Under the pieces are notes generated by a model that was not told where the DNA came from, did no database searches, and worked only from the letters and a program-made list of their open reading frames with translations. From Phycisphaerae bacterium (GTDB lineage Bacteria > Planctomycetota > Phycisphaerae > UBA1845 > UTPLA1): 64,000 bases of DNA. Each line of letters begins with the position of its first letter. Position 1 is the first letter of the stretch. A program made the translations under genes and the position numbers. The stretch is from contig DATEMU010000015.1 in the NCBI GenBank assembly GCA_035275405.1, positions 124,001 through 188,000 of the forward strand, read 5' to 3'. Of the stretch, positions 28,099 to 58,302 are shown piece by piece.

Positions 28099-28123
28099 TG
28101 GGAAGTCGATTTCCACAGATGAC

Positions 28124-28186
28124 GCAGATGGAATCAGATAGGGATTCAGGGAATGAGGGATTAAGGGATTGAGGGGAGGAGCGGCG
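28124..28186. repeat. 63-bp direct repeat, copy A
   Basis: It starts GCAGATGGAATCAG and ends GGAGCGGCG. It differs from copy B by one base. Its inner part has an 8-nt period (AGGGATTC, AGGGAATG, AGGGATTA, AGGGATTG). Confidence 0.9.
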
Positions 28187-28348
28187 AGACAAGATTCGAT
28201 GGTGGTCGTGTTCATGGCGGGGAATCTTTGGGACGGTAAATAGTGGAAAATAGTGGAATCGGCGGGACGGCAACGGCTGCCGATCATCGCTCGCCGCGGC
28301 TCCTTTTTTTTGTTGGTGGAACAAGGCAGAACAAGACGGAACGGTTCC

Positions 28349-28383
28349 AATGCGGAAGTCGGAATGCGGATTGCGGAATGAAG
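28349..28383. repeat. 7-nt periodic repeat tract
   Basis: AATGCGG, AAGTCGG, AATGCGG, ATTGCGG, AATGAAG run in direct succession. They resemble, on the opposite strand, the units inside the ArnT-like gene at 8166. Confidence 0.85.
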
Positions 28384-28393
28384 AGATGAAACC

Positions 28394-28456
28394 GCAGATG
28401 GAATCAGATAGGGATTCAGGGAATGAGGGATTAAGGGATTGAGGGGGGGAGCGGCG
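28394..28456. repeat. 63-bp direct repeat, copy B
   Basis: Near-identical to 28124-28186, with the start points 270 bp apart in the same orientation. Confidence 0.9.
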
Positions 28457-29426: not shown

Positions 29427-29441
29427 GTACCATTGTGGTAC
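29427..29441. promoter_or_regulatory. Operator-like palindrome before the ATPase gene
   Basis: GTACCA (29427-29432) and TGGTAC (29436-29441) are perfect inverted arms around TTG. The site ends 22 bp before the ATPase start, where a repressor could block transcription. AAGGA at 29451-29455 is the likely ribosome binding site. Confidence 0.4.
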
Positions 29442-29463: not shown

Positions 29464-30582
29464 ATGAGTAGTTGCCTTAAGTCGATAACCATTCGGGGGT
29501 TCAAATCGATCCAGAAACTCGATCGATTTGACCTTTCCGATCTAAACGTCCTGATCGGGGCTAACGGTGCAGGCAAAAGCAATCTCGTTGATTTCTTCCG
29601 GATGCTACGGGCGATGGCGGATGAGGGCTTTCAAAAATTCGTGAACCAGCAGGGAGGTGGAGACGGCTTTTTCTTTCTGGGTCCACAGCAAACTCGTCAG
29701 ATTTCATCGCGGTTGGAGTTTGGATCTAATGTATATGAGTTTGACCTCGAGCCAACTGCGGACGGTAGTATTCAAATCGCTGACGAACGAGTGCAGTACA
29801 CTGGGGGCTACGGTCTTGGGATGCTTCGTTCAATAGGGAAGGGCCTACGCGAATCAAACCTCCGGACAAGAAAAAATGATCCCGCGCGCATGGGCCAAGG
29901 GCAAGGCGTGCCAGGATACGTTTACGATGCCGTTTCAAGCTGGACGGTCTATCATTTTCACGATACTGGTCTCCTCGCGCCTATGCGACGAGAGCAATCT
30001 GCGGGTGACTTTGAACAACTTCGGCCTGACGCGTCAAACATCGCCGCATTCCTCTGGAAGTTACGACACGAGCACAAGCAAAGCTACGAGCTAGTTCGGG
30101 ATACCGTTCGGCTAATCGCTCCGTTTTTCGATGATTTTCTGTTTCGCTCGCGCGAGAAAGCTGGCGACGAAAAACTCAAACTGGAATGGCGGCAAAAGGG
30201 TAGCGATTATCCTTTTCAGCCGTCCAATCTATCTGACGGGACAATTCGCTTTATTTGTTTGGCGACCGCATTGCTGCAGCCAACGCCTCCCTCGGCCGTG
30301 GTTATCGATGAGCCTGAACTGGGCTTGCATCCCTTTGCAATTACATTGATCGCCGAACTCATTCAGTCGGCAGCGGCGAAGACTCAGGTACTCATCTCGA
30401 CCCAATCGCCGACGCTCTTGGACCACTTTCAACCTAAGGACATAGTTGTGGTGAATCGCGATGGAGGTAGTTCTACCTTCGATCGCCTTGATGAGACAGA
30501 ACTTACTGAGTGGCTTCGAGAATATTCCGTCGGCGAACTTTGGCAGAAGAACGTAGTTCGTGGGGGACCGAGCCATGAGTGA
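29464..30582 (+). CDS. AAA15/21-type ATPase (SMC-like), defence-type module part 1
   Basis: A 372-residue ABC/SMC-type ATPase. ITIRGFKSIQ at the start and the Walker A motif IGANGAGKSNLVDFFRML (about residue 30) are typical of OLD-like/AAA15 ATPases. The signature LSDGTIRF, Walker B AVVIDEPELGLHP (about 285) and ISTQSPTLLDHF (switch residue Q rather than the usual H) follow. The gene is visibly richer in A/T at third positions than its neighbours and is preceded by a repeat mosaic, which suggests transfer. It overlaps the DUF4276 gene by 8 bp, so the two proteins are made together and probably work together. Confidence 0.85.
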   Translation: MSSCLKSITIRGFKSIQKLDRFDLSDLNVLIGANGAGKSNLVDFFRMLRAMADEGFQKFVNQQGGGDGFFFLGPQQTRQISSRLEFGSNVYEFDLEPTADGSIQIADERVQYTGGYGLGMLRSIGKGLRESNLRTRKNDPARMGQGQGVPGYVYDAVSSWTVYHFHDTGLLAPMRREQSAGDFEQLRPDASNIAAFLWKLRHEHKQSYELVRDTVRLIAPFFDDFLFRSREKAGDEKLKLEWRQKGSDYPFQPSNLSDGTIRFICLATALLQPTPPSAVVIDEPELGLHPFAITLIAELIQSAAAKTQVLISTQSPTLLDHFQPKDIVVVNRDGGSSTFDRLDETELTEWLREYSVGELWQKNVVRGGPSHE

Positions 30583-31348
30583 AGGTCCCCCAGAAACACT
30601 CAACACCGAAGAACAGGAGGGTGTTGAGCCGAATTCACTACGTCGGGGCCGTAGTCGAGGTGTTGAAATTGTTGCCATTGTAGAGGGCCAAACTGAACAG
30701 ACATTTGTACGCGATCAACTTGCCGAACATTTGGGAAGCTTCGGATTCGCTATCTGGGCGATCCTGTCGGGTAAGACGCAAAGACAGGGCGGCGTAAAGA
30801 AATGGGATTCTGCTAGGAATGATATCATCCGGCCACTGAGGGCAGGACGCTTTTGCACTACGATGTTCGACTATTACGCGATGCCTTCTGATTGGCCTGG
30901 GCGACGCGAAGCCTCCAAACTAGCTTGGGCCAAGCGAGCGGCCTATGTCGAGGCTATGATGGCTGAGGACATCGGCGAAACTATCGGCGTTTCGTTTAAT
31001 CCATCGCAGTTCATTCCGTATGTCCAGCTTCATGAATTTGAGGCGCTACTTTTTTCAGATACGGGAGTACTTGCTGCTGCCGCAACCGCCATATCGCCCA
31101 TTACTGAGACGTACTATCGGAAGCAGTTTGACGCAATCATCACCGCCGCAGGCCATCCCGAGGCCATCGATGATGGGTTTGAAACCTGTCCGTCACGACG
31201 GATCAAGGGCATCGTGGCTGGCTTTCGCAAAGGGTTACACAGCCCGATCGTTGCTCGGCGAATTGGGCTTGATAGACTTGTGTCGGACTGTTCTCATTTT
31301 GGTTCGTGGATAAAGAAGCTTGAATCGTTGGCGCTAACGCCGAAGTAG
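30575..31348 (+). CDS. DUF4276 family protein (TOPRIM-like), defence-type module part 2
   Basis: A 257-residue protein. EIVAIVEGQTEQTFVRDQL carries the EGxTE motif of DUF4276, and MFDYYAMPSDWPG supplies downstream acidic residues, a layout like the TOPRIM nuclease domains of OLD-type proteins. VQLHEFEALLFSD is also typical of the family. With the upstream ATPase this resembles two-gene ATPase/TOPRIM systems such as AbiLi/AbiLii or RloA/RloB, which act in abortive infection; this comparison is inference. The ATG at 30575 lies inside the end of the ATPase gene (ATGAGTGA). Confidence 0.75.
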   Translation: MSEGPPETLNTEEQEGVEPNSLRRGRSRGVEIVAIVEGQTEQTFVRDQLAEHLGSFGFAIWAILSGKTQRQGGVKKWDSARNDIIRPLRAGRFCTTMFDYYAMPSDWPGRREASKLAWAKRAAYVEAMMAEDIGETIGVSFNPSQFIPYVQLHEFEALLFSDTGVLAAAATAISPITETYYRKQFDAIITAAGHPEAIDDGFETCPSRRIKGIVAGFRKGLHSPIVARRIGLDRLVSDCSHFGSWIKKLESLALTPK

Positions 31349-55794: not shown

Positions 55795-57718
55795 GCGCAT
55801 CTTCAATCTTCATTTCGCACAGGAGATACTTCCCGTGCCACCACGATCGTTTCACGTGGCCGCGAGCCCAATCGGCGGCGGCCGTGGGGAAAAAGTAGCG
55901 GGCGTCGTACTTGCGGAACAACTCGCGGCGCTGGTCCCACGGCGTGTCCTTGTGCAGCAGGAGGATGAGGTCTTTGCGGCGCTCCACCCAGTCGGTCACT
56001 CCGTTGCTGGCGCTGGCTGAAGAGATGACGAAGCAGTCCGTCAGCATGATCAGATCACGGGCCATGGGGAGCGCGGCGAGGACCGTGCTGCCGGGCGGCA
56101 GACTCTCGCGCAGGAAGCCGGCCAGTTCGCGGATCTCGCGGACGTTTTTGATTCGTTCCTGGTAGGGGAGCCGTGCATCGTCCTTGAGGCGATCCCACGT
56201 CCATGGGTGCGTCTGTTCGGCGAAGGGGATGGCGAGGAACAGCGCGCCGAGTGCGACGACGCCGCGGAGGACGTGGACGGAAAGGGACCTAAGGGACCAA
56301 AACGACCTAAAGGACTTTGCCGCGTCGCGAGGCGCGGGGAACCGATACTCGACCAGATACGCAATGGAAGGGGCGCAGAGGACCATGAAGGTGATCGGAA
56401 AGATGAACTCGATGCGTTGCAATACCCAGGCTTCTTTCGCGTGGTGCAGGAGGAACGAGCAGATCGGGGGCGTGTAAAGCATGATCGCCACGAGCGCGGG
56501 AGCGACGAGGAGCATTGCTACCTCGCGTCGCCGCCGCTCCATGAGTCCGGCGATCAGGCCGGCGGCGACGGCCAGCGTCCCCCAGGCGCCGCCGCCGAAC
56601 AGGTTCAGGACGTTGGCGGGGTCGCGAACCCGTCCACCGCTTTCCGCTGAGATGAAGTAATGCTCGGGGTCCTTGATCTGGGCCGCGAGGTGGGCGGGCA
56701 GGGCTTCGGCGGCGGTGTTGCCTCTCTTGGAAATCAGAATAAACGGCAGACCGACGGCCAGGGACGCCAAACAGATCCCGCGGAGGAGCGCGTCTGCCCG
56801 GCGGCGTCTCCATAGCGCGGTTGCTATGCCGCCAATCAATAGCGGGGCGGTCACCACCGCAAGGAAGAGCACATAGAGACCGTGGAACTGGCCCAAAACG
56901 AGGGAGACGCAGGCCAGCTTGAAGGGAACAGGGAACAGGGAACGGGGAACAGGGGAAGAGGTAGAGGTGTCGCAGGTCGTTCTGCGGCAGGCCTGCATCG
57001 CGAAGGCGAGGCCCAGTGGGGCGAGCCAGAAGGGCGAGAGCTGGTTGGGGTAGATGAGGAAGCTGACCGGCCCGCGGTGACCGATGCAGGCGAGGGCGGC
57101 GACCCAGGCGGGCCAGTGGCGGTCGAAGACGGTCCAGGCGAGGTAATAGACGCCGGAGACGACGAGGAGCTTGGCCCAGGCGAGGCTGATGAACCAGACG
57201 CCGAAGAGGTCCTGGCGCGTGATCTGCACGCAGGCGGCGAAGAGGGCGTGGTGCAGGTTGGTGTGGTAGATCGGGAAGAAGTAGGGGACGGCGATGGAGG
57301 GATCGTTGTTGGAGAAGCCGCGATCGAGCAGGAAGCGGATGCGACCGAGGTGGGCCTTGGCGTCTCCGCCGAAGAAGGAGCCGGTCCACGCGCCCAGCGC
57401 CACGTCGGCGAGGACGATGAGCAATTCGATTCCCACCGCGGCGAGAAAGAGCGAACCGAGCGGCCGCCAGCCTTTGCGGAGGGTGATGTCGAGCGCGGCG
57501 ACGACGATGAGCAGGACGCAGGCGATGGAAAAGAGCGCGACCGGCGCGCGGAGGAGGTAACAGAGGATCGAGATGGGTGAAAGCAGTGCGAGGGAGGCGA
57601 GATAGGAGACGGAGATCGTTCCCAGTAGGCCGGAATGGAGGTCGTCGGTCCAATAGCGACGGACGAAGGCATAGCCGGGTAGCGCGAGGGCGAGCCAGAA
57701 GAGGAGGGAGAGGTACAT
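55769..57718 (-). CDS. Large polytopic membrane protein, GT39-like or related
   Basis: A 649-residue protein with about 12 hydrophobic segments from ATG 57718 (MYLSLLFWLALALPGYAF). Its topology and loops (FFGGDAKAHLGRIRFLLDRG, an acidic first external loop) are like lipid-linked sugar transferases, but the DE motif is not clear, so the assignment is weak. About residues 250-266 (SSPVPRSLFPVPF) derive from an inserted GGGAACA tract, and about residues 463-474 (SFRSFWSLRSLS) from a 9-nt repeat (GGGACCTAA type). The C-terminal tail is written by the hairpin at 55710-55794. It probably acts in envelope glycan synthesis. Confidence 0.55.
   Translation of the reverse strand: MYLSLLFWLALALPGYAFVRRYWTDDLHSGLLGTISVSYLASLALLSPISILCYLLRAPVALFSIACVLLIVVAALDITLRKGWRPLGSLFLAAVGIELLIVLADVALGAWTGSFFGGDAKAHLGRIRFLLDRGFSNNDPSIAVPYFFPIYHTNLHHALFAACVQITRQDLFGVWFISLAWAKLLVVSGVYYLAWTVFDRHWPAWVAALACIGHRGPVSFLIYPNQLSPFWLAPLGLAFAMQACRRTTCDTSTSSPVPRSLFPVPFKLACVSLVLGQFHGLYVLFLAVVTAPLLIGGIATALWRRRRADALLRGICLASLAVGLPFILISKRGNTAAEALPAHLAAQIKDPEHYFISAESGGRVRDPANVLNLFGGGAWGTLAVAAGLIAGLMERRRREVAMLLVAPALVAIMLYTPPICSFLLHHAKEAWVLQRIEFIFPITFMVLCAPSIAYLVEYRFPAPRDAAKSFRSFWSLRSLSVHVLRGVVALGALFLAIPFAEQTHPWTWDRLKDDARLPYQERIKNVREIRELAGFLRESLPPGSTVLAALPMARDLIMLTDCFVISSASASNGVTDWVERRKDLILLLHKDTPWDQRRELFRKYDARYFFPTAAADWARGHVKRSWWHGKYLLCEMKIEDAPHAEAQRR
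56924..56951. repeat. 7-nt periodic repeat inside a coding region
   Basis: GGGAACA, GGGAACA, GGGAACG, GGGAACA occur in direct succession in the membrane-protein gene. The same units open the tract at 62802. Confidence 0.9.
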
Positions 57719-58302
57719 TTCGAGGGGGCGAGTATAAGCGGCGAGGCCTGAGGCGTGAGGCCTGAGGCTTGAGGGAATGCGGAATGGCGGAGCGGGCGAA
57801 CAAGGGGGCCGATGAACAGGTGAACAGGTGAACGAAGGGGAGGGGTGGGGGGCGAAAACGAGCGAAAAAATGGACACGATTTACAAGATGGACAAGATTG
57901 GGGCGAATTCGGAATTGGAGGACATCCACCACAGAAGCACAGAGATTGTTTTTGTTTGGTGGAACGAGGCGGAACAGGCCGGAACGAAGCCCGAGTGCGG
58001 CGGCGCGACGAAGGGCGCGAGGTTGAAAATGCCTGAATCGCTTGAAATTCGCCGTCATCGCGCGGACCGTCCGGGGCCGCGGGCGTCGGAGATTCGACGG
58101 GACGCGCGGCCTGCCTTTCTTTTTTCCTACCGACCCCAACCTTGCTCAGCGCTCCCTGTAATCCTGGGGCCAGGGGCTGGGGATTAGGGGCCAGTGACAG
58201 GTCGGAAGGCACGAAAGCACTGAGTCACGAAGGAGGAGGACTGGAGAGCAGGGGAGCAGGTGAACAGGGGAGTGACGGGAACGGAGAACTGGGGAGGGCC
58301 GT
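57719..58302. other. Intergenic repeat cluster
   Basis: 584 bp without a convincing gene. It holds a 7-nt tract AGGCCTG, AGGCGTG, AGGCCTG, AGGCTTG (57744-57771), AGGTGAAC units (57811-57833), a 9-nt ATGGACA...GATT tract near 57870-57900, a GTGGAACGAGGCGGAACAGG-type segment near 57958, dispersed element copy 3 (58023-58157), 7-nt CTGGGGC units near 58163 and 8-nt units GGAGAGCA, GGGGAGCA, GGTGAACA (58243-58274). The layout parallels 28099-28725. Confidence 0.75.
58023..58157 (-). repeat. Dispersed repeat element, copy 3
   Basis: On the minus strand: AGGGAGCGCTGAGCAAGG (58140-58157), AAAAAAGAAAGGCAGGCCGC, a GGCCCCGGACGG segment, GCGATGACGGCGAATTTC, CAAGCGATTCAGG. The middle block is shared with copy 2 and the last block with copy 1. 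No transposase is encoded; it may be a non-autonomous element or structured RNA. Confidence 0.7.

Follow-up and report, generated by a model that had tools for sequence, protein, structure and literature searches.

An ATPase-DUF4276 gene pair of the HEC-01 type in a planctomycete: a probable anti-phage module with a predicted Toprim nuclease

The two overlapping genes described here, A and B, lie in a stretch of 64,000 nucleotides from a Phycisphaerae bacterium (the window, by which the whole of the DNA that was analysed is meant), and judged by their profile matches they are a member of HEC-01, a candidate defence system that is already catalogued by PADLOC. An earlier note on this DNA had proposed a two-gene module of an ATPase and a DUF4276 protein with a possible anti-phage role, an idea that is right but not new. 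This role, which the pair very probably has as far as sequence comparison and structure models can tell, is supported by the HEC-01 match, by a near-universal pairing of the two genes, by a Toprim fold in B like that of OLD and AriB proteins, and by copies of the pair in restriction operons and on plasmids. New here are a likely nuclease mechanism for HEC-01, an exact insertion of the pair at a seam between two housekeeping genes, and alleles at this seam that look like mosaics; the system itself was already listed. HEC-01 is widespread, and with B placed beside OLD and AriB, a domain of unknown role becomes an enzyme that can be tested at named residues.

Results

Identity and Composition of the Pair

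Both reading frames are intact and co-directional, and they overlap by 8 bp, in agreement with the overlapping layout described before; the ATG of B (30575) falls within the last codons of A, which has its stop codon at 30580-30582.

29464..30582, + strand: gene A, 372-aa ABC-type ATPase (AAA_21, SMC/Rad50-like head), HEC-01A
30575..31348, + strand: gene B (HEC-01B), DUF4276 protein of 257 aa, predicted to be a Toprim nuclease like OLD and AriB

When the two proteins are compared with the PADLOC models, a check that the earlier note had suggested, HEC-01A and HEC-01B are the best matches by far. Protein A matches HEC-01A over residues 3-369 of 372 (E 5.2e-139), its next-best model outside the HEC group being AriA (1e-34), while B matches HEC-01B over residues 31-253 (E 3.7e-62) and meets only HEC-01B models at E ≤ 1. 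HEC stands for Hma-embedded candidate, and activity is ascribed to HECs "including HEC-06" (PMC12988326). In the literature searched, HEC-01 appears only in a list of systems, with neither an anti-phage activity specific to it nor a mechanism, and DUF4276 is named in no paper found.

The GC content of the pair is 52.0%, compared with 61.4% for the window, and this is the minimum among all 622 windows of the same size, so the lower GC noticed earlier is real. The GC3 of the pair is 51-53% and that of three neighbouring genes 78-86%, a gap which points to horizontal arrival of A and B.

Surroundings in the Window

The pair has nadA on one side and a convergent gene for a CpaE-like ATPase on the other. 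It stands in no defence island, as no other PADLOC matches were found among the flanking genes scanned, and no helicase gene adjoins it. Since nadA and the CpaE-like gene are adjacent in none of the relatives searched, no empty site can be defined for the copy in the window.

Upstream of A, a repeat of 64 nt and another of 38 nt each occur twice.

28123..28456, no strand assigned: 64-nt repeat in two copies (28123-28186 and 28393-28456), upstream of the pair, part of a dispersed repeat

The repeat mosaic pointed out in the earlier note is thus present, but the core of the first repeat recurs, in near copies, at five further genomic locations, from which follows that the repeats are dispersed and do not mark a boundary of the pair; we judge them unrelated to its function. 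The palindrome GTACCA-ttg-TGGTAC (29427-29441), which had been called operator-like, is also there, but with about 0.4 comparable 6-bp inverted repeats for every 130 bp of the window, its presence is not above chance. A scan for a consensus promoter ahead of A found none, with results at chance level, and neither Rfam families near the pair nor tRNA genes in the window were found. Elsewhere in the window, positions 57001-58000 show an unusually strong purine skew over one kilobase (GC skew 0.33, AT skew 0.35).

The start of B lies within a GC-rich hairpin, which has a folding energy of -24.3 kcal/mol (z -3.65, 0/200 shuffles) and contains GGGGGA, the Shine-Dalgarno-like sequence of B.

30561..30592, + strand: 9-bp perfect hairpin (arms 30561-30569 and 30584-30592) around GGGGGA and the ATG of B

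By covering the ribosome site of B, the hairpin may couple the two genes in translation, in such a way that B is translated only when A is; it is not conserved, being present in 1/77 relatives.

Gene A

The best Pfam match of A is AAA_21 (4.8e-36), which outscores AAA_15 (2.2e-14). The previous description was of an OLD/AAA15-type ATPase. The structure model of A matches the heads of SMC, Rad50 and PtuA, and on this model A has an ATPase head of that type. Invariance of its columns was judged across 20 homologues.

29557..29580, + strand: Walker A GANGAGKS, A residues 32-39; G32, N34, G35, G37 and K38 invariant
29791..29943, + strand: poorly conserved segment, about residues 110-160, candidate sensor region
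30229..30243, + strand: ABC signature LSDGT, A residues 256-260; S257, D258 and G259 invariant
30298..30333, + strand: Walker B and D-loop VVIDEPELGLHP, A residues 279-290; D282 to P290 invariant

Among the same 20 homologues, there are no invariant columns between E108 and D167.

The Toprim Fold of Gene B

The match of B to DUF4276 (PF14103, 2.1e-40) spans the whole protein and is its sole Pfam match; PHROGs gave nothing convincing, and sequence and profile searches against solved structures returned only chance matches and no link. The relation to known enzymes comes instead from the AlphaFold model of B, which was built on an alignment of 59 rows and has a pLDDT of 95.2. With this model, the only Foldseek matches below 1e-3 are C-terminal regions of OLD proteins (best E 4e-4), and in VIA-align the OLD C-terminal Toprim regions have Z values of 9.6-10.3, with 6NK8 at the top (Z 10.3), followed by AriB of PARIS (Z 8.6, rmsd 4.3) and by GajA at Z of about 7, a range that can be unspecific. 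The fold matches are moderate, with Z 8-10 at an rmsd of 4.3-4.8, and they make B a probable, predicted Toprim nuclease of the OLD/AriB type.

The metal ligands of the OLD protein BpOLD are E400, D455 and D457 together with E404, T506 and E508, and its lysine is K562 (PMC6755086). Residues of B were paired with these by register, not by residue-level superposition. The structural alignment of B with 6NK8 starts at residue 1 against 393, which places E8 and E12 on E400 and E404, provided that the first strand is ungapped.

30683..30697, + strand: EGQTE of B, with E8 (invariant) and E12 (almost invariant), domain residues being counted from 30662; they are proposed to correspond to BpOLD E400 and E404
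30869..30877, + strand: DYY of B; D70, almost invariant, is proposed to correspond to D455, and Y72 replaces the second Asp of DxD
31031..31042, + strand: HEFE of B (H124-E127), invariant; E125 and E127 proposed equivalents of T506 and E508
31229..31231, + strand: K190 of B, invariant Lys, proposed equivalent of the catalytic K562

The EGxTE motif that had been read in the DUF4276 protein is accordingly present as EGQTE. The second Asp of the Toprim DxD is a Tyr in the clade of B, while several distant DUF4276 proteins retain DxD. Because the single substitution D457A in BpOLD has no discernible effect (PMC6755086), the loss of this Asp need not abolish the activity of B. In a divergent DUF4276 branch (loci L080, L092 and L065), motifs of the EEPS/EEQS type replace EGxTE, and both DxD and the upstream ATPase are kept.

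Pairing and Distribution

The earlier note had named two observations that would speak against its proposal: lack of co-occurrence of the two genes in other genomes, and a conserved housekeeping context. The first did not arise. In a sample of the phylum, where DUF4276 was searched alone in 392 genomes and found in 73, an A-like ATPase gene is immediately upstream in 59/60 fetched loci, some of these partners being fragments at contig edges or with broken frames; the single exception begins at a contig end. In loci from named genomes and viruses, among the matches listed, a script found the ATPase adjacent in 75/82, while 5 had no room upstream. At a further locus (L126) the start of B is extended in error, and when this is discounted the ATPase is adjacent there too; with this locus and a fusion (L137) included, the ATPase lies directly 5' of B in 77/77 evaluable loci among those matches. 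The two sets share some contigs and are not fully independent. In relatives the two genes usually overlap, and judged by these loci the pairing is obligate or near-universal. The fusion, from Candidatus Electrothrix aarhusensis (L137:6885-8681), is a natural single reading frame of 598 aa; it suggests that A and B share a complex, but it could stem from misassembly where the two genes overlap.

When one genome of each species was scanned, at least 562 relatives were confirmed. By record titles, and among the matches listed, the carriers are Planctomycetes, Proteobacteria, Chloroflexi, Acidobacteria, Cyanobacteria, Verrucomicrobia, Nitrospirales and others. No phage record encoding a relative was found; two viral contigs do encode one.

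Plasmids of five genera were examined, and each has the ATPase-DUF4276 layout. In Aeromonas pE31A the pair lies between methyltransferase and DEAD/DEAH helicase genes, an arrangement like that of type III restriction operons. On an Ideonella plasmid it stands in such an operon, behind the helicase and methyltransferase genes and before Mrr; in Piscirickettsia and Acinetobacter plasmids it stands alone. In three chromosomal loci (L124, L149 and L168), the pair belongs to a type I restriction operon, downstream of HsdM-like and specificity-like genes. Outside the window, its immediate neighbours are defence genes only sometimes. The Acinetobacter plasmid pTR11_2 (L034) is an 11-kb mobilizable plasmid with VapBC and tet(39) in addition to the pair. 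On the Nostoc plasmid pCENA543b (L035:1-8700), a gene for a Piwi-domain protein lies a few kb from the pair, with a PD-(D/E)XK nuclease gene beside it.

A Fixed Insertion Site with Diverged Alleles

In the order to which genome G388 belongs, 36/148 genomes have a B relative and 122/148 have a particular acyl-CoA dehydrogenase (ACAD) gene; by coordinates, the pair is just downstream of this gene in about 11 of the 148. The site is a seam inside a conserved etf/acyl-CoA dehydrogenase/HAD operon. When the seam is occupied, A and B stand exactly between the ACAD and HAD genes (9/10 fetched genomes, the tenth being without a HAD match), and B is separated from the HAD gene by no more than a few bases. 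When the pair is missing, the ACAD gene is directly followed by the HAD-hydrolase gene in 17/20 sampled genomes, and two show no HAD gene. From the exact occupied and uninterrupted seams follows that the mobile unit is the two genes and nothing else: at this seam, A and B come and go as one unit in the relatives. The conserved housekeeping context is thus seen in a single lineage, where, however, the operon carries the pair only as an optional insert. As a fixed, optional site the seam was observed in loci L188-L217 of this order and also in L101, L102, L105, L106, L109, L110 and L112. In one of the 20 pair-less genomes (G440, L202:1999-2868), a pseudopilin-like gene occupies the seam in place of the pair.

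To exemplify how alleles at the seam differ, consider loci L211 and L212, where the flanks are 92% (ACAD) and 82% identical, A is 70% and B 46% identical; in L214 and L215, A is 98% and B 79% identical, with a flank at 87%. Between several alleles the variable segment of A is 7-50% identical, as compared with 80-97% for other parts of A. When identity is taken blockwise, L211 and L212 have 89% to the left of aligned position 146 and 52% to the right, while L210 and L215 show the reverse, with 45% to the left and 81% to the right; such differences between seam alleles were reached in 0/500 shuffles. Because the direction is opposite in different allele pairs, a simple variation of rate from site to site is a poor explanation. 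Since the seam dehydrogenase gene shows some heterogeneity too, recombination is the likely, not formally proven, cause of these mosaic-looking alleles, which on the aligned sequences would be intragenic mosaics.

Discussion

The layout and the folds of A and B support a sensor ATPase that controls a nuclease. The reading that we consider likely is that the pair, as a member of HEC-01, is a split nuclease of the OLD type that works much like PARIS: A senses and cages, B cuts on a phage trigger, and the cell is halted. In an uninfected cell, A, an ABC-type ATPase, would be both sensor and scaffold, and B, a stand-alone Toprim nuclease, would be held inactive by A in a putative complex. When a phage product touches the variable segment of A, an ATP-dependent rearrangement of A would free or activate B. 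By metal-ion catalysis through E8, E12, D70, E125/E127 and K190, B would then cut RNA (perhaps tRNA) or DNA, and the infected cell would be halted in an abortive manner.

A wider reading, which we put forward tentatively, is that HEC-01 forms a lineage of its own among the split OLD-type systems, with an exchangeable recognition segment in its ATPase, and that in one planctomycete order the pair sits at a fixed housekeeping seam where its alleles swap sensor and nuclease segments. If this is true, chimeras that occur in nature would make it possible to assign each phage trigger to the part of A that recognises it. Together, the mosaic-looking alleles and the exact empty sites amount to a natural experiment on sensor recognition.

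The substrate of B bears on another reading, in which A and B are always assembled and nick or degrade phage or plasmid DNA in the way of OLD and Gabija, with neither release of B nor killing of the cell. This would go well with the natural A-B fusion, with restriction genes as companions, and with the best structural matches of B, which are OLD proteins that cut DNA (PMC6755086). However, the best matches also include AriB, a tRNase (PMC12409363), so that the fold does not separate a DNA from an RNA substrate, and a stand-alone B resembles the layout of PARIS; we regard such a direct DNA nuclease as rather unlikely.

Two overlapping genes with the ATPase first, which are carried on plasmids, move as an exact two-gene unit, and have a hairpin that could couple B to A, could also be a toxin-antitoxin or selfish maintenance pair, where the nuclease toxin B is restrained by A and the pair is kept since its loss is harmful, phage defence being incidental or absent. 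The line between the two is thin, and PDB entries name the PARIS ATPase "AriA antitoxin". Recognition is nevertheless the better fit both for the recurrent embedding in restriction-modification operons and for the diversified candidate sensor region with its mosaic-looking alleles, and a maintenance pair is in our judgement improbable. A chromosomal housekeeping or repair function in RNA or DNA metabolism, unrelated to phage, could draw on the operon seat in about 11 of the 148 genomes of one order and on an archaeal OLD-family ATPase with a reported role in the cell cycle and apparently none in antiviral defence (PMC12796447), but it is already weakened by the empty sites and is most improbable, as the pair is absent from the seam in about 111 of the 122 genomes with that ACAD gene, the seam is intact in most pair-less genomes sampled, the divergence of the pair is out of step with its flanking genes, and the distribution in the window's own family is patchy (1/17 genomes).

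Comparison with Known Systems

With HEC-01 the pair shares the best-matching models of both proteins, the gene order and the overlap; it differs in that the window copy stands alone and is not embedded in another defence system.

Protein A resembles the Mad3 ATPase of MADS (NCBIfam 7e-34; PADLOC 2e-28), but its NCBIfam score of 117.6 bits compares with a cut-off of 420, and there are no other PADLOC matches among the neighbouring genes scanned, so the pair was not assigned to MADS.

AbiL (AbiLi/AbiLii) and RloA/RloB have a two-gene layout of an ATPase and a Toprim-like protein. The parallel to them in the earlier note is apt in layout, which the pair shares, but the profiles assign HEC-01 instead: A reaches only 3e-24 on AbiLi, and B has neither an AbiLii nor an RloB match at E ≤ 1.

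Like OLD proteins of class 1 and 2 (P2 Old, GajA), the pair combines an ABC ATPase with a Toprim domain that has acidic residues and a Lys at proposed matching positions; unlike them, it has separate chains (with one fusion seen) and a Tyr at the second Asp of DxD. Membership in OLD classes 1-3, where ATPase and Toprim are in one polypeptide, does not apply to the two genes of the window.

PARIS has two genes, an ATPase and a Toprim effector, with occasional fusion (PMC12409363, PMC10568477), and in both respects the pair is like it, as it is in the match of the B model to AriB. It is unlike PARIS in that A matches AriA (1e-34) far less well than HEC-01A (5e-139), and in that B, which carries DUF4276, matches no AriB model at E ≤ 1. 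In PARIS, AriA senses and AriB cuts tRNA (PMC12409363), and by analogy this is the closest worked-out model for how A and B may act together.
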